A stretch of 64,000 bases of DNA from Malus domestica (taxonomy: Eukaryota > Streptophyta > Magnoliopsida > Rosales > Rosaceae). This document shows positions 4,479-21,034 of the stretch, piece by piece. The first letter of the stretch is position 1. Every line of letters begins with the position of its first letter. The notes below the pieces were generated by a model that worked only from the letters and a program-made list of their open reading frames with translations, ran no database searches and was not told the DNA's origin. A program made the translations under genes and the position numbers. The DNA lies in the NCBI RefSeq assembly GCF_042453785.1, contig NC_091663.1:34460001-34524000 (forward strand), written 5' to 3'.

Positions 4479-5738
4479 GGGTAAATTACATAGTAGCCCC
4501 TCAGGTTTGAGGGTAAATTACAACCCATACAACATCTTTAAAACATTTCACTTTCATACATCCAGTACCATTTTATTTCAAAATAACACATCCGTTAGAT
4601 TTTCCATCCATTAGTCTGTTAAATGCTGACATGGCTGCCACATTTATGCCACGTGGCAAAAAAAATAATTTTAATTTTTTTTTAAACCTGAATCTTGTCA
4701 AAAAACAAAAAAAAAACTGAAAAACGCAGGATCCACACCCCACCTTCCCCGCAACCCTTCCCCACCCATCTTCTTCCCCGCAACCCTTCCCCACCCATCT
4801 TCTTCCCCGAGCCCTCCCCCTTCCCTGCAACCCAAACACCCCATCCCACCCCAACCCCCACCCCAGCCCACCTCCCTCTCCTCCACTCTCTTCACCTCCC
4901 TTCCCATCCAAAAACCCACCCAATCTCATCCAAACAAACGCCCATATCTCCTTCTCCCCCACTTTTCTCCGATTCAGATTCGACTTTCCCCATTTCAAAT
5001 CTGCCGAGATCATCCCCCACCTCTTCATCACCTGCCATCATGCTCCTCCTCAAAGGTGACACGATCTGACGAGATCGACTCCAAGGTGAAGGTCCACGAT
5101 CTCCTACAACCCCACGATCCGACGACTCACCTTTCTCCTCGCTTGCCTCACCGCGGGGTCCACCTCATGCATCAATTCCAGCTTCAGCAGCAACAGCCAC
5201 ACCAGGGATTTGGTGGTCGTTGTCCATTTGAAGGCGGGAATTTGGGCTAGAAGCCTGATACTTTTCGAGGAGGCCATAGTTGAGGGATCTGGGGAGGTCT
5301 GCTAGGCAGACTTTGAGGGAATTTTGGGGAGAGAGATGGGCGTTTTGGGAAATGAAAGATGAGCAAGAAGGATGAGAGGAAGAAGGAGAAGGATTGGAAA
5401 GGAAGAAGAGAGAAAGAGAGAGAGAGCGCAGAGGAGAGTGAATACAAAGAAGAAAGTGGGAACAGAGCAACGGGGGAAGATGAGTTAGTTTTTTTTTTTT
5501 TTTTTGAGAAGATTCAGGTTTAAAAAAAAAAAATTTGCCATATGGCACACATTTGGCAGCCACATGGCACAAATGTGGCAGCCACGTCAGCATTTAACAG
5601 ACTAATGGATGGAAAATCTAACGGAGGTGTTATTTTGAAATAAAATGGTACTCGATGTATGAAAGTGAAATGTTTTAAAGTTGTTGTATGGGGTTGTAAT
5701 TTACCCTCAAACCTAAGGAGCTACTATGTAATTTACCC
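4479..5738. mobile_element. Mutator-like non-autonomous element with long inverted ends
   Basis: The two ends are inverted repeats of about 175 bp, starting GGGTAAATTACATAGTAGC at 4479 and mirrored at 5738. The element is flanked by a 9-bp direct repeat TTTAGTTTT (4470-4478 and 5739-5747). Long inverted ends plus a 9-bp target duplication fit the Mutator superfamily. The interior is unlike its surroundings: a C-rich, proline-coding stretch (about 4730-5050) and an AG-rich stretch (about 5340-5480). It could be captured host DNA, but I recognise no gene in it. No transposase is encoded. Confidence 0.85.
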
Positions 5739-7119: not shown

Positions 7120-9727
7120 TTCAAAATTCACCAACTAGATATGTGAAATCCTGTTTCCAGATTTCACCGTTATAATCTACGTATTTGTATTATTGAGATT
7201 TTATATTATTTTTCGAGAATTTATATTAAATTATTTGGATTTAGATTTTAATTAAATTAGTTATGAAGTTTGAAATTTGGAAAGTAATTATCTAAAACTC
7301 GTTGACCTTTTGAGGTCACAATTTATATTTTTGGATAGATCTTGAAACCACGAACGCATAGGCGAAAGCCGTTTGCGAGTCCGAATTATAACGGTATAGT
7401 TACGGATGTTTGAAGTTGTGACACTATAAAGTGTAGGAATTATTTAACTTGTAAGAGGCCAATTTAGATATTTGGGTTAAGGGACCAATTAGTTAAAAAG
7501 ATGGAGAGGATTTTAATTTTTCTGGGGGTGGAGTTCTGAGGACGCACTCTCTGACCTCTTCCCGACTCTCCCACCCATTTGGCGAACTCTCCAGAACTCT
7601 CTCAACCCATCCTTCTCTTCCCTTCCTCATACAACAGAGAAGGCCGACAGGGAGTCGAAGCCGCATGAGCGGGCAAACCCAAATCACCAAACTATCATCA
7701 CCGTAATTCCCATCTCATCATGAATTTCTTCCCTGTCCCTATTTTTGAAAAATGAAATTGTGATAACGAATCAAGAAGCTCCAACGAGGCCCGACTTTTC
7801 CGACGAGTTTCTACCATTTTCCGGCGAAGCATGTGTGTTTTGGTTGAGGAATGGTGAACAGGATGTCCAGACGTTGCAAATAGAAGCAACATCCTTGTCT
7901 GTTCGATTGACTCTTGTGCAGCGATATACAAATGGGCGAACTGGAACAATGATTGAAGTTGTGCTTGCAAACAAAGGAACAACGAGTTCATTTGCAAGAT
8001 GGTGAGCCCATTCTCCTTTCATTTCCTTATCTTTGTAATATGTCTTATTCTTTCCTTATTAATGTATAGACACAAGAAAAGGTACATACTTTTATTTCAT
8101 TGAATTGTTTGTAGTCTTGGTTAAAAAGGTAAGAATTAGGCATGTTATAGGCACGCTAACACATTGAAATAGAAGTTAAATATGATTCCTTGATAGTTTG
8201 GAAGTGCTCTGAAATTGTAAATTTGATTAAACGAGTATGGGTTCTAAATTACTGGAAACTTATTCATTTTGCAGAGAGAAACTATGTTTCATGTAGTCTA
8301 CTTTGGCTCTTGATTTCCATGTCCTTGTGAGTTCCTTTTGATCTAATGTTATGTGTTTTGGAAATAAACATGTCCATGATCAAAACCCATCTGATTTCAC
8401 TTAATTGCGTTGAGTTTTGATAGATTAAAATCATTTCCAAAGTTGAGTCACAGGGCTGCCAGGCAGCAGCAAGTTCTGTAATTCTAGTTTTGGAACTCCA
8501 TTTCATAGTTGGAATAACTTACCATTTAGAGTTCTGTTCGCTACCAATATTATATGATTTCAAAGTGCACAGAACAAGCCTCCAAAAACCATTTAAGTTT
8601 GTACCATTTGGTTCAGGTTTGAGCTTTCAAAGTGAGCCTAAACTTGGTTGATCGGAGCAGTTTTTATGCAACTTTTGTGGAGAAAATGAGTGTTTATTTC
8701 TACATTATCCAATTCTTCTCCGAGTTTTTCCTTAAAGTGCTTTTGCATTGTATTAGTATCGTTATTTGAAGTATATATTGTACTAAAATAATGTCTATGT
8801 TACATGGTAAACAAATGGATATATGATATTACTTTGGCTGCTAGTTGGTTTATTTCAAATGGAAGAAAGGATCAAGGAATAACTACTTCACTTGTGGTCA
8901 ACCTGTAGCTTGCATATAGGGGTAAACATTTCAAATTTCTTTATTCTTCTAATGATTGAATATAGGTTGTTATATACAGAATTAATATGGTTTATGGTTC
9001 AGAAAAGTAGAAAGCCTGAATTAGAGCGAAACCCGATGGCTCCTCCTATTTTGGTTCATTGCTTTATATATATACAACATGATAGGTGATTAGTATAATA
9101 GGTATTTGCAGTAAGGAGAATATACCTCTTGGTTTTTATGTTTGGAGGTCGATATACAAAAGGATGTATAAGACATCTGGTTATCATTTAATTAATTTCA
9201 AAGGATAGCATACTTTTATCTGACTTTTACATTTCCATGCTACTAAAATTGTACTCGTTCAAATGTATGGGTGACTAGATATTGGTAGTCAAGAGGAATC
9301 GGCAAAATGTATATTTGGATGCGTATTGAACTTGTTGTGAAGTGCTTGTTGAATTGTTTGATGAAATGTGATTTGACGTGCATATTTGAAATGTGGTTTG
9401 ATTCACTTGATTGGTATGTGGTGATGAAATGTGAGGCTAGGAGTGGACCGTTAACCATTGTGATGGGGATTTGTTGCTTCAATATTGTTTCATTTTCCGC
9501 TTCGTTGATTAGTTCTAAATTTAGTAATTGTGCCTAATTTCCCTTTGTTGAGCTTTTGTAAATTAAGTAGCATGTGCTTGTCTCATTTCTTTGAGCCATC
9601 GTACATTATGGTGTTGGCCTTCCGCGATTCCGTTGAGTGATGGTCCGGAATCCTTTCTACTCCACGATTTCGTTGAGTGATGGTCCGGAATCGTATCCTG
9701 GGTTGGATATCGTTGAGTGGTCCAAAA
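7120..9727 (-). mobile_element. Long repeat family copy D (minus orientation)
   Basis: Diverged copy of the family described for copy A, reading leftwards. Its lower end (7120-7440) is the inverse of 12650-12960 in copy A. Blocks at 8100-8640 are the inverse of 15890-16216 and 17333-17580 in copy B. Blocks at 9430-9720 are the inverse of 10330-10550 in copy A. The 5' end of the family and the module array are missing. It keeps the empty site (about 8374-8392) of the insertion found in copy B. The short open frames near 7745-8022 are part of the repeat, not a gene. Confidence 0.7.
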
Positions 9728-12700
9728 TGTCACGCCCCGATCACAACATACGTCCAGAATCGACACGTGACGTCACCAATACCCGTACATCTAACATACC
9801 CCGCCTCCGGGATATGTACAAAGCATAAATCAAGATTCAAATTTCATAGCATTTTTTGTACAATTTATGGCTGCATCTAACCTCTTCGTTAGACTGCCTA
9901 CGTACCCTCAATAGGGATCAAGTCATTCGTAGTTCAACGTTCGTCAAACTTTAATCTTTTCGTAAAATACTTAGGGTACCACACTACACATCAACCATAA
10001 GCCATACACAATTATCATCTTGTCATGCACGCAGGTATGTTATGCCCACACATATATTTTCCACTTCATCTTTCATATAAATCACTACATTTCACATGAT
10101 TCTCCATTTCATAATATGCGACATCTCAAAGAACAATCAACGGATCATCATGCTATTTTCTAGCCAAAATAGTCAACGAGTCTAATTATAATGACAAAAA
10201 TCACAACCAACATTATTCCACAATCACATCAATCAACAACACATCATATACCAAAATGTAGGGCTAGAGCGACACAGTTTGGCTGAAGCCTACATCTCTG
10301 AAGTTGATATCAATCCAAGAAACTAACAAGTCAATGATACGATTCCGGACCATCACTCAACGGAATCCAAACAGAACTTAGTTTCGAACCATTCAACAGA
10401 ACCGAACGGAAGTCCAAGAAGCATAACTATGGCTCGAAGGAACAAGACAGGATTCAAGTTACTCAATTCACGAAGACTCAACAAAACGAACTAATATCGA
10501 GCAACAAATCCCCATCACAATGGGTTATCGGTCCATTACTAGATCTCACATCTCCCAAGCAATTCAATAGTCATTTCAATCACATGACACAACCATTTCC
10601 AATACACAAGTCAAATCACATTTCACTACATCGTACCAATCACTATGCTTCCAACATTATATCTCTATCCATAGCTTGTAACATATCAGGGAATCACGAA
10701 GCACAATATTAATATTTAATTACGTTAATCAATCAGTGAGATAGCACATCATTTCACGAGTTTAATTAAAGAACTCTACATAATTCCCTACTTGAGTTAT
10801 GAATAATAACAAGATAATTCTAATTTGTATGCACAAGATCCATTGTGCATAATTCTCATTCACTCGAATCTAGGATTCTAAGATAACCTTATGGAAATGA
10901 GCAAAAGCAAGGATTCCGAACCACTCAACGGAATCTAACAACATTGGGTTCCGGACCACTCAACGGAACCAAATTACAAGTATGAGATAATCTATAAAAA
11001 GAAAGACCATTGATCATAGTTTATAACCTCAAATATAAGTTCGTAAATATGAAAACATAATCAAGTCTCTAACAACTCCGAAGAAGTCACCCAGACATCC
11101 AACGACTTATCCCATTCAAACCATCAAGATTCTCAAAAACTATCATTCATATGTACATTAAAACTAGGGCTAGAGGGACGCAATTCAACTGAAGCCCACA
11201 TAAGTAACTAAACAGGAAGTGGGCCCCCCCAAAGCAGATTAACCAAGCAGAGCCACCCTTAAGAAAGTAACCAAGTAGGCAGTGACCCCCCAATGCGGAT
11301 TAACCAAGCAGAGTCACCCCTACAACTATTAGGAAGCGATCACCCAATACGGATTAACCAAGCATGATCACTCATAAGCGTACATGGCCATAAGGATTTC
11401 CCAACGCAGGTTAACCAAGCGCAATCCATATATAGTATGGTCCCCCAATGCAGATTAACCAAGCAGGACCACTAATGACCCCCTAATGCGGATTAACCAA
11501 GCAGGGTCAAAATAATCAGGTAGGTAGTGATCACCCAATGCGGATATACCAAGCATGATCACTCCTAGAATGCGTATGGTCCCCCAATGCGAATATATCA
11601 AGCAAGACCATCAATGTACAACTACTACATGGTGTAGTAAACTCAACCCCTCAACTTATCCACATCTCAACCCCTATGAGTTTACAACGTAGTCACCTAC
11701 ACCATCACTTCTCGAGGTCACCACTAATATGTCACCCAAGCATATAAGTGCTACAACATACCTCTAATAGGATTCTAGGATCACATTGTCATAAAAATAA
11801 TCATACTCATCATTCACATTACTAAAAGGTAATTAAACTCACATATATCACAACCATCATCAGTACACAAGCCAAATCATGCTAATAAGCATATGTCTAT
11901 GGCTAAATATATAAAATCACATTTCAATAGAAATCACATTTATAACACCAAGCCATATTCACAAATGATATAAATATACGAATTTAAAGTATCGTCAACT
12001 GTTAGAATATCCAAGTGGTGGACCCATCTAAATATACTCAACCAACAACATTTCATAAATCGAATGCCACACATCGGAAAATTCGACTTTTTCCAAAAAT
12101 TCTCATATTTTACAAGAATAAAGATCTCAACAAGGGAAACATTATTCACAACTAGGCCAACAACAAATTCTAACCGGAAACCATCCAAATTCATTGGGGA
12201 AAACTGGGTTTCTAGGGTTTTAAACACCCAACTCTAAAACGAATACGAAAGCACAAACCAAGCATATCAACTTATAGATTATGAAGAGTAGATGAAGTTT
12301 CATACCTCACTCGAAGGAAATGGTTGCCGGAATCACCGGAAAAATGACACAATCGCCGGAAAACCCACAGGACTTTGCTGCCTCTAACTGGAAAAGTGGA
12401 TCCGAAAATGGGAAATATAACACCACAGGGTCGTAGGGCTCTTCAAGAGCTTTCTATGGACACCAAGATCACCCAAAACGGAGCTCGGATGAAGAAGATA
12501 TGAGTGGGTCAAGTTTATGGGTCAAAATGGTCGAAAATGCCCAAAAAGGGGTCAAAATCAGACCCTCCTTCCTTTTTTTTTTTTTTTTTCTGTCCGTTCC
12601 CTTTTATTTTCTATTTGTCCCTGGTCCCTCTCCCACTATGTGCGAGTTTTAAAATAAATTAAAATATATAGTTTAGTAACACAACTTCAAATATCCGTAA

Positions 12701-12960
12701 TTATACCGTTAAAACTCGAACTCGCAAGCGGCTTTCGCCTATACGTTCGTGATCTCGAAATCTATTTAATGATATAAATTGTGACCTCGAAAGGTCTACG
12801 GATTTTAAATAATTAATCTCCAAACTTCAAACTTCATAACTAATTTAATTAAAATCTTAATTCAAACAAATTAAAATAAATTCCCAAAAAATAATATAAA
12901 ATCTCAATAATTCAAATACGTAGATTATAACAGTGAAATCTAGGAACGAGATTTCACACA
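9728..12960 (+). mobile_element. Long repeat family copy A (TGTCACGCCCC...), LTR-like
   Basis: Begins TGTCACGCCCCGATC at 9728 and ends near GAGATTTCACA at about 12958, so it has TG...CA ends of about 3.2 kb. No polymerase or capsid gene is seen. This could be a long solo LTR or a gene-less LTR-type element; the superfamily cannot be fixed from the window. It contains the hairpin-module array (11217-11612), several copies of a second motif (CCGGACCACTCAACGG), and a conserved 3' section that includes GCAAGCGGCTTTCGCCTAT. Old, judging by its divergence from copies B, C and D. Confidence 0.6.
11217..11612 (+). repeat. Array of about 8 hairpin-like modules, copy A
   Basis: Eight modules, each with the core AATGCGGATTAACCAAGCA or a near variant. 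Short flanking arms are complementary within each module: GTGG/CCAC, GTGAC/GTCAC (11282 and 11313), TGATC-type, GGATT/AATCC (11394 and 11423), TGGTCC/GGACCA (11438 and 11466), TGACCC/GGGTCA (11476 and 11504), GTGATC/GATCAC (11527 and 11557), TGGTC/GACCA. Spacing is irregular, about 33-57 bp. No open frame runs through it. Confidence 0.85.
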
Positions 12961-12968
12961 AAATCCCA

Positions 12969-13722
12969 TTCTTCGAAGAAGTAGGTTTGGCTTAACTGTG
13001 TCAGTCTAGCCTTCGTTTTAGTATATTGTGAATAATGGTTTTGAGAATATTGTGGGATTCCTTCGAGATTTTCTACGATTCAATTATGATTTCATAGTTT
13101 ATGAATTTAGAAGATATGGGAATGATTGTTATTTTTTTTTACCATATTAGTTAATTAATGTGGCTAGAGAATGGTTTTGTGCGTTGTCGGTTCTTAAATA
13201 TGATGTATGTTGTGAATTGAGATGCTGTTGAGTCATAATGATTTATATGAAGGATGGAAGGGAAATCTTGATTTTTTTTCATGTGGGTTTGTTATGTTAC
13301 CTTGAGTCTAGGAATTTTATGCTTGTCAAGTTCTATTGATTGATGTGATAATTGGATGGTGTTGGAACGCTTATGGGTGGATGAATGACTAGATGACTAA
13401 AAATTATTATTGTTCTTTGTTAAATGTTCCTTGAGGTGCTACATGATTGAGTCGTTGTATTATGTTGAGACATAGTGGTCTATGTGTTGAATGTTCGATT
13501 GAAGTGAAATGACGAACTACGAATGGCTTGATCCCTAATGAGGGTACGTAGGCAGTCTAACGAGAAGGTTAGATGCAGCCATGAAGTATACAGAAAATTA
13601 CTATGCGATTCAATTCTCGAGTTGTAATTTGCCATATTCCGGAGGCAAGGTATGTTAGAGATACGGGTATTTGGTGAAGTCACGTGTCGATTCTGGACGT
13701 ATGTCGGGATCGGGGCGTGACA
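12969..13722 (-). mobile_element. Long repeat family copy C (minus, 5' 750 bp only)
   Basis: The sequence ends GGGATCGGGGCGTGACA at 13722, the mirror of the family start. The stretch 13480-13722 is the inverse of about 9728-9950 in copy A. The inner end (about 12969-13010) matches the family segment with GACACAGTTTGGCTGAAGCC in copy A (about 10260-10310). It abuts copy A tail to tail, which forms a large imperfect palindrome. No genes. Confidence 0.65.
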
Positions 13723-14734
13723 AGATATCTCATGGTCAACATTAATATTAATTGCCTCAAAATTTGAATTTAAAATAAATTATGTAATATGAAACCCAAT
13801 GATCAAGCGGGTGTTGAATTGAAACAAAAATGGACCTAAATTGAAATTACATCAATAGGTCACTCTCCTAACAAAAAATAGGGTTAAGATGTCACGCCCC
13901 GATCCCTATATACGTTTAGCATCGCCACGTGACGTCACCACATACCTATTCATATTTCATGCCCCGCCTCCAAGACATAACTAAAACACAAATCAAAGGT
14001 TCTACAACATATCAACTTTTCTTTTATCTTATGGCTGCATCTAACATTTGCGTTACACTACCTACGTACCCGACGATGGAATCAAGCCATTCATAGTTCA
14101 CACTTTCATTAAAGTATGAGATTTCTCGTAGTACTTCCTAGCAGAAAATCATTTAGCTCCATAATTAATCAAAGGAATTCAACGAGCATGATTCACTCGA
14201 TTCCAGACTATGCAACGAACCCGTATGTCAACTAAGGTTTTTCATTCACAGATATCATAACATTTTGTAGCACAATTCCATAAATGATAACATACAACAT
14301 TTCAATGAACCAACGATGCATAATATTAACCATTAACCATATTTATCAACCAATCCGAGAAATATAAATCAATCATAAACCATAATTGATAAACATATGA
14401 ATAATCTAGCCAGAAATCCTGAATGAGTCACCTAGACATTCATTAGCCTTTCTAATTCAAAACATAAAGGTTCTCAAATATTTCATCCATAAACATGTAC
14501 AAAATTAAGGCTAGAGTGACACAAAGAATCATAAAGATTTCTAGGAATCTAGCTCCAAACCAATTCAATGGAATCTCCAATAGAAAACGATTCCGGACCA
14601 CTCAATGGAACCGAGGCATAGCGGGATATCCGGATCACTCAACGGAATCCTGATTAAAATTCATTTCTGGACCACTCAACGGAATCGAGCGGAGCTGTGT
14701 ATCCGGAGCACTTAACAAATCTCACTCTAGAATG

Positions 14735-15305
14735 CATATGGTTCCCAAATGAGGATTAACCAGGCAAAACCATTGGCATATCCATCCAATAGGCAGTGAC
14801 CCCTAATACAGATTTACCAAGTAGAGTCACCCCTATAATGTGTATGGTCTCTAATGCGAATTAACCGAGCAAGACCACCTATGGAATAGAGTAATCAAAT
14901 AGGCAGTGACCCCTTAATTCAGGTTAACCAAGCAGAGTCAACTATAATGTGTTTGGTCCCTGATGCGGATTAACCAAGCATGACCATAAGCATATATCCA
15001 ATATTGTGGTCCCTTAATGCAGATTAACCAAGCAGGACCACCTATAGAACAAGTAATTGAATAAGCAGTGAACCCCTAATATGGATTAACCAAGCAGCTT
15101 ATGGTCCCCTAATGCAGATTAACCAAGCAGAACTACTTATGGAATAGAGTAATCATAGACAGTGACCCCCTAATGCGATTAACCAAGAAAAGTCACCCAT
15201 ATAATGCATATGGTCCCCTAATAATGCGGATTAACCAAGCATGACCATAGACATGTATCCAACAGTGTGGTCCCCTAATGCAAATTAATCAAGCAAGATC
15301 ACATA
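14735..15305 (+). repeat. Array of about 11 hairpin-like modules, copy B
   Basis: Same core as the array at 11217-11612. Most modules again have complementary arms: TGGTT/AACCA, GTGAC/GTCAC, TGGTCT/AGACCA, TGGTC/GACCA, TGGTCC/GGACCA. The last module pairs TGGTC with GATCA through one G-T pair. GTGAC-type and TGGTC-type modules tend to alternate. Two modules near 15066-15135 have damaged arms. Confidence 0.8.
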
Positions 15306-16216
15306 TGTACCACAGTTACATGGTGCAGTCTCATCATCACACATCATACATAATTGTACGCGCACACGCTATCGATTCCACGTATCAACCAATCATCTAG
15401 TCATATGAAGCACAACACAAGGAATTCCCTTAATTACTATTTTTACTAAAAATCTAATAAAGTACCTTACTCATCTTCTGACTTTCATCTCTATCTCATG
15501 CTAGGTAGTAATGCTAAGTTTAGATAGGCATTTAGTTGGCAATCATATATCCAAATAATTATAAAAAAATATTTAGATCCCATAATAATACGAATAATAA
15601 AGAATAATACTAATAATGGGGTTTCCCTAGAACCTCCTACCTCGTGTTCGACTACCTTTATCAACACAAGTCCTCCAAACTTTCTAGCACAACACCCGAA
15701 TCTAAACCAATTTACAAAAGCATGAACAAATGAAAACAAACACAAGTAACGCATATTAACAAGCATGGAAGTGAATAATTACAAATTATTAACTTGTGTA
15801 GCATAGACATTATTTTAGTACAACTTATACTTCAAATAACAACACTAATATAAAGGAAAAGTAATTTAAAGAAAAACAGGAGAATGATTGGGTACTATAG
15901 AAACAATACTCCTCCACAAAAGCTGCATAAAAACTGCTTTGATCAACCAAATTTAAACTCACTTTTAAACGCTCAATCCTGAACTAAATGGTACAAACTT
16001 AAATGTTTTTTGAGACTTGTTTTGTGTAATTCATAAACACATAATATTGGTAGAAAACAGAGCACTATATTGGAAGTAATGCCAACTATAAAATAGATCC
16101 CAAAACTGGAAATGCAGAACTTGCTGTCTGGCAGCTTTGTGACTCAAATTTGAACATAGTTTTGGTCAACCAAAACTCAACGGAATTAAGTGAAATCAGA
16201 TGGGTTTTAATCATGG

Positions 16217-17621: not shown

Positions 17622-18775
17622 GTATTCGGGTTCATGCCAGGGCGCTCAACCAAGGAGGCAATCTATCTCTTACGAAGATTGATGGAAAGATATAGAGATG
17701 GGAAAAAGGATTTACACATGGTCTTTATAGATTTGGAAAAAGCGTATGATAGGGTCCCAAGAGACATTCTTTGGAGGATTTTAGAAAAGAAAGGAGTACG
17801 AGTAGCATATATCCAAGCTATAAAGGATATGTATGAAGGAGCAAAGACTGCCGTAAGAACTCATGAAGGACAAACCAAAAGTTTTCCCATAACTGTAGGA
17901 TTACATCAAGGCTCATCCTTAAGTCCTTACCTTTTTGCGTTGGTAATGGATGAGTTAACAGGACATATTCAAGATGATATTCCTTGGTGTATGCTTTTCG
18001 CAGACGATATAGTGTTGATAGATGAAACTCAGGAAGGGGTAAATGCAAAGCTTAACCTTTGGAGAGAAGTGTTGGAATCTAAAGGTCTTCGCCTAAGCTG
18101 ATCAAAGACAGAATCTATGGAGTGCAAGTTCAGTGCAAATGGAGGCCAAAACGAGTTAGAGGTGAGGATCGGAGATCAAGAAATACCAAAGAGCGACCGT
18201 TTTCGTTACCTAGGATCTATCTTGCAAAAGAACGGAGAATTAGATGGAGATCTCAACCATAGAATACAAGCTGGATGGATGAAGTGGAAGAGTGCATCCG
18301 ACGTGTTGTGTGACCGCCGTATGCCACTGAAGCTCAAGGGAAAATTTTATAGGACGGCAATAAGGCCGGCGATGCTGTATGGCACAGAATGTTGGGCGGT
18401 GAAGCATCAACACGTACTTAAAATGGGTGTAGCGGAGATGAGGATGCTTCGTTGGATGTGTGGGCACACGAGAAAGGATAAGATTAGGAATGAGGATATC
18501 CGGGGTAAAGTAGGAGTAGCCGAAATTGAAGGAAAGATGAGAGAAAATCGGTTACGGTGGTTTGGACATGTGCAAAGAAGGCCTACTAACGCTCCGATTA
18601 GAAGATGCGACTATGGGACAGAGGTTCAGGGCCGAAAGGGTAGAGGAAGACCTAGGAAAACTTTGGAAGAGACCCTAAGAAAAGACTTAGAGTACTTGGA
18701 TCTAACGGAGGACATGACACAGGACAGAACACAATGGCGTTCTAAGATTCATATAGCCGATCCCACTCAGTGACT
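17622..18775 (+). mobile_element. RTE-type LINE, 5'-truncated, 3' end lost
   Basis: Starts inside the reverse transcriptase ([16 protein letters not shown]) and includes [31 protein letters not shown] and the catalytic MLFADDIVL box, then the RT thumb/connection region (FRYLGSILQ, AIRPAMLYGTECWAVK, MLRWMCGHTRKDKI) to the C-terminus IHIADPTQ. One in-frame TGA at 18099-18101 splits the frame (17634-18101 and 18117-18773), probably from a CGA codon. The (TTG)n tail is missing: other DNA begins right after the last codon. Dead copy. Confidence 0.85.
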
Positions 18776-19714: not shown

Positions 19715-20380
19715 AGGTGTTGAAGAGAGAAGAGGTCGGACAAATCAAGATCTTAGAAGTGCAAGAATGGAGCTTCTACTGGTGGATATTCAAATGTGCT
19801 TTGGAACTTAATGTCAGCCCCTATAAAAATCTGCACTCGACGAAGCTTCAGAAATCGAAGAGGCGCCTGCTCAGAAATCGAAGAGGCGTTTGCTTTCTCA
19901 AAAGCTGGGTTGCTCAGAGATCGAAGAGGCGTTGGCTTTCTCAAAAGCTGAGCTGCTCAAAGACCACGAAGGCCGATCTTAGAAATCGAAGAGGCTTGCT
20001 TTCTCAAAAGCTGGGCTGCTCAGAGACCACGAGGGCCGATCTCAGAAATCGAAGAGGCACCTACTTTTCCAGCCTCGTCAGCACCTGTCACACGCACACT
20101 CAGCTTTGCGGAAATTATGGGCCTTATGTCAAAGATTTCTGGCGAAGTAGAAAGCACATGAATCGTACTGTTCAATCACCCACTTCCCACACGCAACAGT
20201 AGCTCATGGGTACCACAGATAACTTTGCCAAAGTTCTCTGACAAAGTTGAGACACGTGAAGCTTGCAGCTCCCACTACATCGCTCTGACCAAGAAGGGTA
20301 AAAGAATAGCAAAGAAACAACACTACCAAAGTTTAGACACTTAAATTTTGAAGGTCTAGCTACCATATTATTACCCACAA

Positions 20381-21034
20381 GGGTAAAGGAACAGTACCAC
20401 TGCTGGATAATTGGAAAGTCCCGGTGTGTCAACCTCTGTGCTTCGTGGCAAGGTAGACTAGCAAACATGCCCAACCTTTACTCACATTCGAGAAAACACT
20501 CCCAACAAGATTGCTTGCTCCAAAATCGAAGAGGCACCGCCCTCCGAATCTCGAGAGCCAGACTCTCAACATGATTACTTTCTCAAAAATCGAAGAGAGG
20601 GTAAAGGAATAGTACCACTGCTGGATAATTGGAAAGTCCCGGTGTGTCAACCTCTGTGCTTCGTGGCAAGGTAGACTAGCAAACATGCCCAACCTTTACT
20701 CACATTCGAGAAAACACTCCCAACAAGATTGCTTGCTCCAAAATCGAAGAGGCACCGCCCTCCGAATCTCGAGAGCCAGACTCCCAACATGATTACTTTC
20801 TCAAAAATTGAAGAGATGGTAAAGGAACAGTACCACTGCTAGATAATTGGAAAGTCCCTGTGTGTCAACCTCTGTGCTTCGTGGCAAGGTAGACTAGCAA
20901 ACATGCCCAACCTTTACTCACATTCGAGAAAACACTCCCAACAAGATTGCTTGCTCCAAAATCGAAGAGGCACCGCCCTCCGAATCTCGAGAGCCAGACT
21001 CCCAACATGATTACTTTCTCAAAAATCGAAGAGA
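20381..21034 (+). repeat. Three tandem 218-bp units
   Basis: Units begin at 20381, 20599 and 20817, each with GGTAAAGGAAYAGTACCACT, and are nearly identical. Each contains GTGTGTCAACCTCTGTGCTT and two 64-bp sub-units with AATCGAAGAG and CCGAATCTCGAGAGCCAGA. The close identity suggests recent expansion. Confidence 0.9.

Follow-up and report, generated by a model that had tools for sequence, protein, structure and literature searches.

The stems of retroviral packaging stem-loops tolerate change, whereas their loops do not, and CTE-like elements are structured RNAs that recruit export factors. The hairpin array described here resembles the retroviral packaging and dimerization leader (psi) and its Gag-binding stem-loops (retroviral packaging is reviewed in PMC5035971): several short stem-loops lie toward the PBS side of an LTR, in RNA that is, or in the case of the array would be, the genome of an element that replicates by reverse transcription. 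Unlike psi, the array repeats a single module whose inner part stays the same, and it lies within a plant LTR of 3.2 kb, ~1.5 kb from the PBS-side end in the LTR copy L024. The RTE and MTE elements of MMTV and MusD, like the array as we propose it, are structured RNAs within LTR elements, and recruit export factors (PMC12786077); the plant host and the tandem multi-copy layout set the array apart from RTE, MTE and CTE.

Retand and the U3 repeats of Tnt1 exemplify arrays of short repeats in non-coding regions of plant LTR retrotransposons (PMC11963269; PMC3601003). However, the Retand arrays sit between pol and the 3' LTR, whereas our array A lies inside the LTR, and the words "hairpin" and "inverted repeat" do not occur in the main text of PMC11963269. 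The plant LTR element BARE separates translated from packaged RNA (PMC3735527), so that a signal marking one of the two pools is conceivable; BARE is a Ty1/copia element (PMC12786077), whereas the carrier of our array is Ty3/gypsy, and the abstract of PMC3735527 mentions no hairpin array. No description of such an array was found in the literature searched, outside which lay most subscription papers and Repbase. The 14-letter core GGATTAACCAAGCA had no match in the paper text searched, and Rfam 15 returned no covariance-model match at E ≤ 1 over positions 9700-15500 of the window (the whole 64,000-nt stretch of Malus domestica DNA analyzed). Cis-acting RNA structures in LTR elements are already known; the layout of this array appears, as far as the literature found extends, not to have been described before.

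Modules of arrays A and B

Positions 11217-11612 contain eight 36-nt modules around the core AATGCGGATTAACCAAGCA (Table 1). The initial annotation had counted eight modules sharing this core, and the count stands, although the core is exact in only two of them and carries one to four mismatches in the other six. In the whole window, 15 cores were found at ≤3 mismatches against 0 expected (100 shuffles); six of these lie in copy A, and two further modules at four core mismatches make up the eight. In the common register, which most of the arms share, 7 nt at -10 to -4 before the core pair with +1 to +7 after it, and three letters, mostly CCC, separate the 5' arm from the core. The five arm pairs named in the annotation are all present in this one register, as GTGAC(C)C/G(A)GTCAC, GGATT/AATCC, TGGTCC/GGACCA, TGACCC/GGGTCA, and GTGATCA/TGATCAC. 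The arms of M1 read, on the plus strand, GTGGGCC/GAGCCAC in the window copy and GTGGCCC/GAGCCAC in many other loci. Array B has ten modules at ≤4 core mismatches and one with a deletion (by eye), some of them shifted by one letter. Sense-upstream of array A, at 11628-11708, nested inverted repeats TGGTGTAG...CTACACCA around GTAAACTCA...TGAGTTTAC were seen by eye.

Table 1. Positions of the LTR, the hairpin arrays, their modules, and the second hairpin motif in the window (the minus strand is the element sense; stems are given as RNA)
Feature	Position	Strand	Description
Solo LTR carrying array A	9728..12958	minus	3231 bp; both ends and CAAAA duplication; relatives align over the same span
Second hairpin motif	10336..10406	minus	one long-loop copy (UUGAGUGAUGGUC), one decayed short-loop copy
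Second hairpin motif, two copies	10905..10975	minus	loop UUGAGUGGUC or UUGAGUGGUU; stems UGGUUCCG/CGGAACCC, AGAUUCCG/CGGAAUCC
Hairpin array A	11221..11611	minus	eight modules, sense order M5-M3-M6-M5-M4-M3-M2-M1
M1 module	11221..11256	minus	outer stem imperfect in this copy
M2 module	11282..11317	minus	stem GUGACUC/GGGUCAC, one U.G
M3 module	11336..11371	minus	stem GUGAUCA/UGAUCGC, one U.G in sense
M4 module	11393..11428	minus	stem GGAUU/AAUCC; inner pair C-G replaces U-A
M5 module	11437..11472	minus	stem GUGGUCC/GGACCAU, one G.U
M6 module	11475..11510	minus	stem UGACCC/GGGUCA
Second M3 module	11527..11562	minus	stem GUGAUCA/UGAUCAC
Second M5 module	11576..11611	minus	stem AUGGUCU/GGACCAU, one U.G
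Hairpin array B	14738..15302	minus	second, diverged LTR family; its sense 3' end at 13890

The carrier LTR and the place of the array within it

Array A is carried by a solo LTR of a Ty3/gypsy retrotransposon; the initial annotation had seen the hairpin array but missed this carrier. The LTR has the plus-strand ends TGTCACGCCCC...GATTTCACA (TGTCAC...TTTCACA) and is flanked by the target duplication CAAAA at 9723-9727 and 12959-12963, and thus shows the TG...CA ends and 5-bp target duplication of Ty3/gypsy LTRs. Among nine further LTR copies in which both ends were checked, an exact 5-bp duplication is present in seven (L024, L012, L021, L014, L022, L018, and L028) and absent in L011 and L015. 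At 23 places in the genome, TGGTATCAGAGC, which we take to be a tRNA-Met-type primer site (PBS-like), lies within 2-14 letters after the LTR end GGGGCGTGACA as read on the opposite strand. One of the 23 (L029) was examined for internal domains, and its pieces match the Pfam profiles of gag, protease, RT, RNase H, the integrase zinc domain, and the integrase SH3-like domain, so that at this one place the PBS-adjacent LTR is accompanied by gag, PR, RT, RH, and INT in the order of a Ty3/gypsy element; a purine run and then a second LTR start are also found there. The chromodomain at the integrase C-terminus that marks the Ty3/gypsy chromovirus lineage was looked for in a single L029 piece (4742-4960), which had no match to the Chromo profile, and a chromodomain-like tail was seen by eye in a broken copy. 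The array modules adjoining L029 (L002) are on the strand opposite to the PBS-like TGGTATCAGAGC and the coding domains, so the element sense is the minus strand of the window. Genome-wide, the core has 2787 matches at ≤3 mismatches and the reversed pattern has 43. As a possible carrier we also considered HODOR, a repeat of apple with high copy number; the accessible text of PMC6445120 gives no HODOR sequence.

The 3' end of LTR copy A in sense (9728-9935) and the end of an older LTR of opposite orientation (13514-13722) form an inverted pair that is 85% identical. Because the LTR reaches only to 12958, where it has its own duplication, and what lies to the right belongs to the end of the older, oppositely oriented LTR, a reading of 9728-13722 as a TIR DNA transposon with 208-bp inverted ends was dropped. 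Copy A is inserted into this older LTR, which ends at 13722. The segment 9362-9697 is an inverted match to 10336-10625 of copy A, as would be expected of the left-hand part of the older LTR; the search for minus-strand core matches revealed no array there. Around the LTR cluster lie inverted repeat pairs of 80-82% identity (8086-8387/17331-17625 and 8372-8804/15797-16218). Elsewhere in the window, two ORFs at 17634-18773 resemble LINE-type reverse transcriptase by eye, and a 218-bp unit occurs three times in tandem at 20380-21034 (98% matches).

In the element sense, TATA-like motifs at 289-292 and 1010-1018 and an AATAAA at 351-354 are common to the window copy (winA), L024, and L021, while L012 has the first TATA-like motif and the AATAAA, and the other four of the eight LTRs differ. 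The array of L024 (~1340-1750) is downstream of both TATA-like motifs, and in L021 and the window copy it likewise comes after the two motifs, ~1.5 kb before the LTR end. It is from these TATA-like motifs that a position of the array in the leader is suggested. Of 12 sequences searched for splice signals, 4 contain GAGTGAGGTA, which resembles a splice donor (winB has GAGTAAGGTA), and 6 contain a stretch that resembles a branch point and acceptor; both are pattern matches only. L024 has GAG|GTATG at ~648 and TCTAAC...GATGCAG at ~3180 in sense, as do winA, L012, and L021; if used, these two would place the array in an intron inside the LTR.

The array appears from our alignments to be among the best-conserved parts of the LTR. 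Six LTRs compared with L024 have identities of 0.87-0.93 at 1401-1700, which is the array (≤23% gaps), versus 0.43-0.81 at 1-1100. Beyond the array the identities are 0.72-0.92, the highest being those of the last 23 letters (0.92) and of a bin that is 62% gaps (0.88). When families A and B are compared, all 11 B sequences can be aligned in the array, no more than 7 of them near the sense end, and hardly any at 201-1100, a contrast that is inflated because the B loci were found via the array and the A loci via the exact core, and because most B loci span ~1.5 kb either side of the match.

The same LTR contains a second hairpin motif with the loop UUGAGUGGUC or UUGAGUGAUGGUC and stems such as GGAUUCCG/CGGAAUCC, GGUUCCG/CGGAACC, and CGAUUUCG/CGGAAUCG. 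Pair 6 of its 35 short-loop copies is A-T in 10, G-C in 9, and G.T in 7 (paired in 26 of 35), and pair 8 of its 26 long-loop copies is G-C in 9 and C-G in 8 (paired in 18 of 26); at pairs 1-3, sense wobble occurs 39 times versus 16 for A.C. As this motif also varies its stem in step, stem change that preserves pairing is seen twice in the LTR.

Stem types and matched changes in the arms

Six stem types account for all but 28 of 308 modules from 43 loci or window arrays; their plus-strand 5' arms are GTGGC (M1), GTGAC (M2), GTGATCA (M3), GGATCG (M4), TGGTCC (M5), and TGACCC (M6). In the larger set of 455 modules from 67 loci or window arrays, about seven types recur. Family B has GTGGTCC/GGACCAC alongside ATGGTCC/GGACCAT. 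A sample of 78 modules with another core variant, inspected by eye, contains the stem types already named, some modules that are decayed or mixed, and one further type, GGGTT/AACCC; this type was found at one locus (L061, C7:18576669-18576703) and is two matched changes apart in sense from the GGATC/GATCC of M4. Modules with more than four core mismatches were excluded from the type and strand tally, the fold energies, the column-pair scoring, and the type-group tally described below.

The sense order of the types is M6-M5-M4-M3-M2, often doubled, followed by M1, and it is kept, with losses and gains, in most of the 16 family-A arrays (by eye). This conserved order indicates that the copies descend from one ordered array and hence are not independent. 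Both arms belong to one type group in 313 of 380 scored modules, where random dealing predicts 88 (75 of the 455 modules were left unscored, having an arm more than one change from every type), and mixed-arm modules number at most 67 of the 380, an upper bound since types one change apart get confused. A genome-wide search for a new stem pair at columns 3-34, with no G at column 3, no C at column 34, and a nearly exact core, gave no clear new type: of the five modules it returned, two are A-T, pair poorly around this position, and look shifted by one letter, and three are T-T or A-A. The stem is therefore not free, as the initial annotation had it, but is drawn from a few types that recur in a conserved order and were copied with the LTR. 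The alternative offered there, that a few paired types arose once and were copied, holds for the many copies and leaves the matched differences between types unexplained.

The central claim of the annotation, that the arms change together around a nearly constant loop, is borne out. In an alignment of 50 modules (45 distinct; chosen by the analyst from the two window arrays and four loci, with shifted-register modules omitted), 90.9% of cells pair, and 64 cells have two-sided changes; shuffles give 23.6, none of the 500 reaching the real value, and slid registers give no more than 7. Changes on both sides are found in the 45 distinct modules at six of the seven outer pairs and at the inner pairs 8-24 and 14-20. 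Two of the five alignment measures do not exceed shuffles: the number of pairs with a double change was equalled or surpassed in 133 of 500 shuffles, and that of further pair types in 442. When 528 column pairs were scored for an excess of standard pairs over independence in 322 distinct modules (380 modules from 53 loci, shifted registers being counted as they stand), the excess of complementary arms that the annotation called for was found, with the top three pairs in register (7-30, 5-32, and 4-33). The in-register pair 2-35 ranks fifth, the fourth, 2-30, is no stem pair, and 1-36, 3-34, and 6-31 show little excess (0.01-0.03).

Since the sequences are related, shuffles of modules overstate the case, and the type is a fairer unit than the module. 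When the 3' arms were re-dealt among seven types, represented by majority strings set by the analyst, none of the 5040 permutations other than the real one attained the real count of 45 of 49 Watson-Crick pairs; when sense wobble was allowed, the real count of 47 of 49 was attained by 2 of the 5040. Between types, the outer pairs 1-36, 2-35, 4-33, 5-32, and 7-30 and the inner pair 8-24 differ on both sides, and the minimum number of two-sided changes is ~8 by the analyst's count, not hundreds. A plain minisatellite, in which head-to-tail copies carry unrelated differences, does not describe this array, as the arm differences are matched. RNAalifold gave an inner pairing that differs from the one proposed here, and the inner structure of the module is uncertain.

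Folding and wobble bear on which strand carries the hairpin. The mean fold energy of 250 distinct modules is -10.7 kcal/mol in sense and -6.0 in antisense, and with arms swapped between modules, a comparison the annotation had suggested, it is -8.0 and -4.1, respectively. In 250-nt windows over the array, the sense fold energy was ordinary in the three LTRs tested (z -2.4 to 1.5); the signal sits in the matched arms rather than in stability. The frequent non-Watson-Crick states, at -5:+2 in M1 (28 of 30) and M2 (47 of 59) and at -10:+7 in M5 (28 of 59), read C/A or A/C when taken from the plus strand and therefore correspond to G.U, not A.C, in sense. Of the two carriers the annotation had allowed for the hairpin, RNA or single-stranded DNA, these states make RNA more likely. 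Inner pairs 3:19 (54 versus 5) and 6:14 (41 versus 7) also favor sense wobble over sense A.C, while 5:17 (8 versus 28) and 4:18 (17 versus 22) lean the opposite way, and scattered within-type changes at outer pairs show little strand bias (76 sense wobble versus 53 sense A.C, a sum that omits the three frequent states and the 28 unassigned modules). Such a weak or opposite lean of scattered changes would be expected of dead, methylated copies.

Possible roles and competing explanations

The explanation we favor, with about as much confidence as doubt, is that array A is a cis-acting RNA element of its Ty3/gypsy LTR retrotransposon, at which Gag or a host protein probably docks. The transcript of the element, read from the minus strand of the window, would bear a row of hairpins (~6 to 11 in well-kept copies) within a transcribed 5' leader. 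In each, an outer stem of 6-7 bp would enclose an inner part of ~22 nt that is nearly constant (UGCUUGGUUAAUCCGCAUUGGG) and may form a small inner stem and a 5-nt bulge on one side; variable spacers would separate the hairpins. If these hairpins fold in cells, selection during the active life of the element would have kept the stems paired while their letters changed, and kept the inner part. A protein would read the inner part, and the presence of several copies on one RNA suggests multivalent binding, repetition letting several molecules bind one RNA. The likeliest reader may be the element's own Gag, in choosing or dimerizing genomic RNA, or a host RNA-binding protein; Gag would be our first candidate, and export or translation factors the second.

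The array might also have arisen without any function, if intrastrand template switching or hairpin-templated copying during reverse transcription wrote one arm onto the other and a few resulting types were then copied with the LTR. The element replicates via reverse transcription, the types are few and keep their order, and they are copied as units, as the type-group tally shows, all of which this origin would accommodate. However, copying of arms should tend to erase the one-sided 5-nt bulge, yet most listed modules keep it, unmatched-arm modules persist (within the upper bound given above), and neither the sense G.U at the three frequent states nor the conservation of the array is explained; we regard a purely mutational origin as unlikely. 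A role in export, splicing, or translation within a long leader, rather than in packaging, does not seem probable to us either. Such a role would fit with the donor-like and branch-point/acceptor-like matches and with the position of the array, which in L024, L021, and the window copy follows two TATA-like motifs, but these splice signals are pattern matches only, and 6-11 repeats of a motif exceed, to our knowledge, what an export element needs. Structured transport elements have been described in LTR elements such as MMTV and MusD (PMC12786077), and plant pararetroviruses have structured leaders (PMC5902531).

It could alternatively be DNA that is read, the modules being palindromic binding sites for a host transcription factor in an LTR enhancer. 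The core varies less than the arms and contains GGTTAA, which we take to be a GT-box, and the U3 tandem repeats of retroviruses and of the plant element Tnt1 have been linked to transcription (PMC3601003). However, matched arms at a distance of 22 nt are not required of a binding site, the G.U states that occur frequently favor one strand as RNA, and in LTRs with shared TATA-like motifs the array follows these motifs; sites of this kind seem very unlikely to us. A more specific version of a packaging role is that the array is a multivalent packaging or RNA-sorting signal, in which all hairpins share one inner part read by a protein while the stems are kept different so that neighbors avoid cross-pairing and each folds alone, perhaps placed behind a splice donor and thereby present on unspliced genomic RNA only; we think this quite unlikely.

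Cis-acting RNA signals of plant LTR retrotransposons seem to be little known, and in the accessible text of a 2025 review of the plant LTR retrotransposon life cycle neither "packaging signal" nor "dimerization" occurs (PMC12786077). An abundant element with a clear hairpin array would offer a concrete RNA for tests of Gag binding. The different stems suggest a rule by which an RNA motif can be repeated without cross-pairing and, if the sorting signal just described were true, they would amount to an anti-misfolding code for repeated RNA sites.
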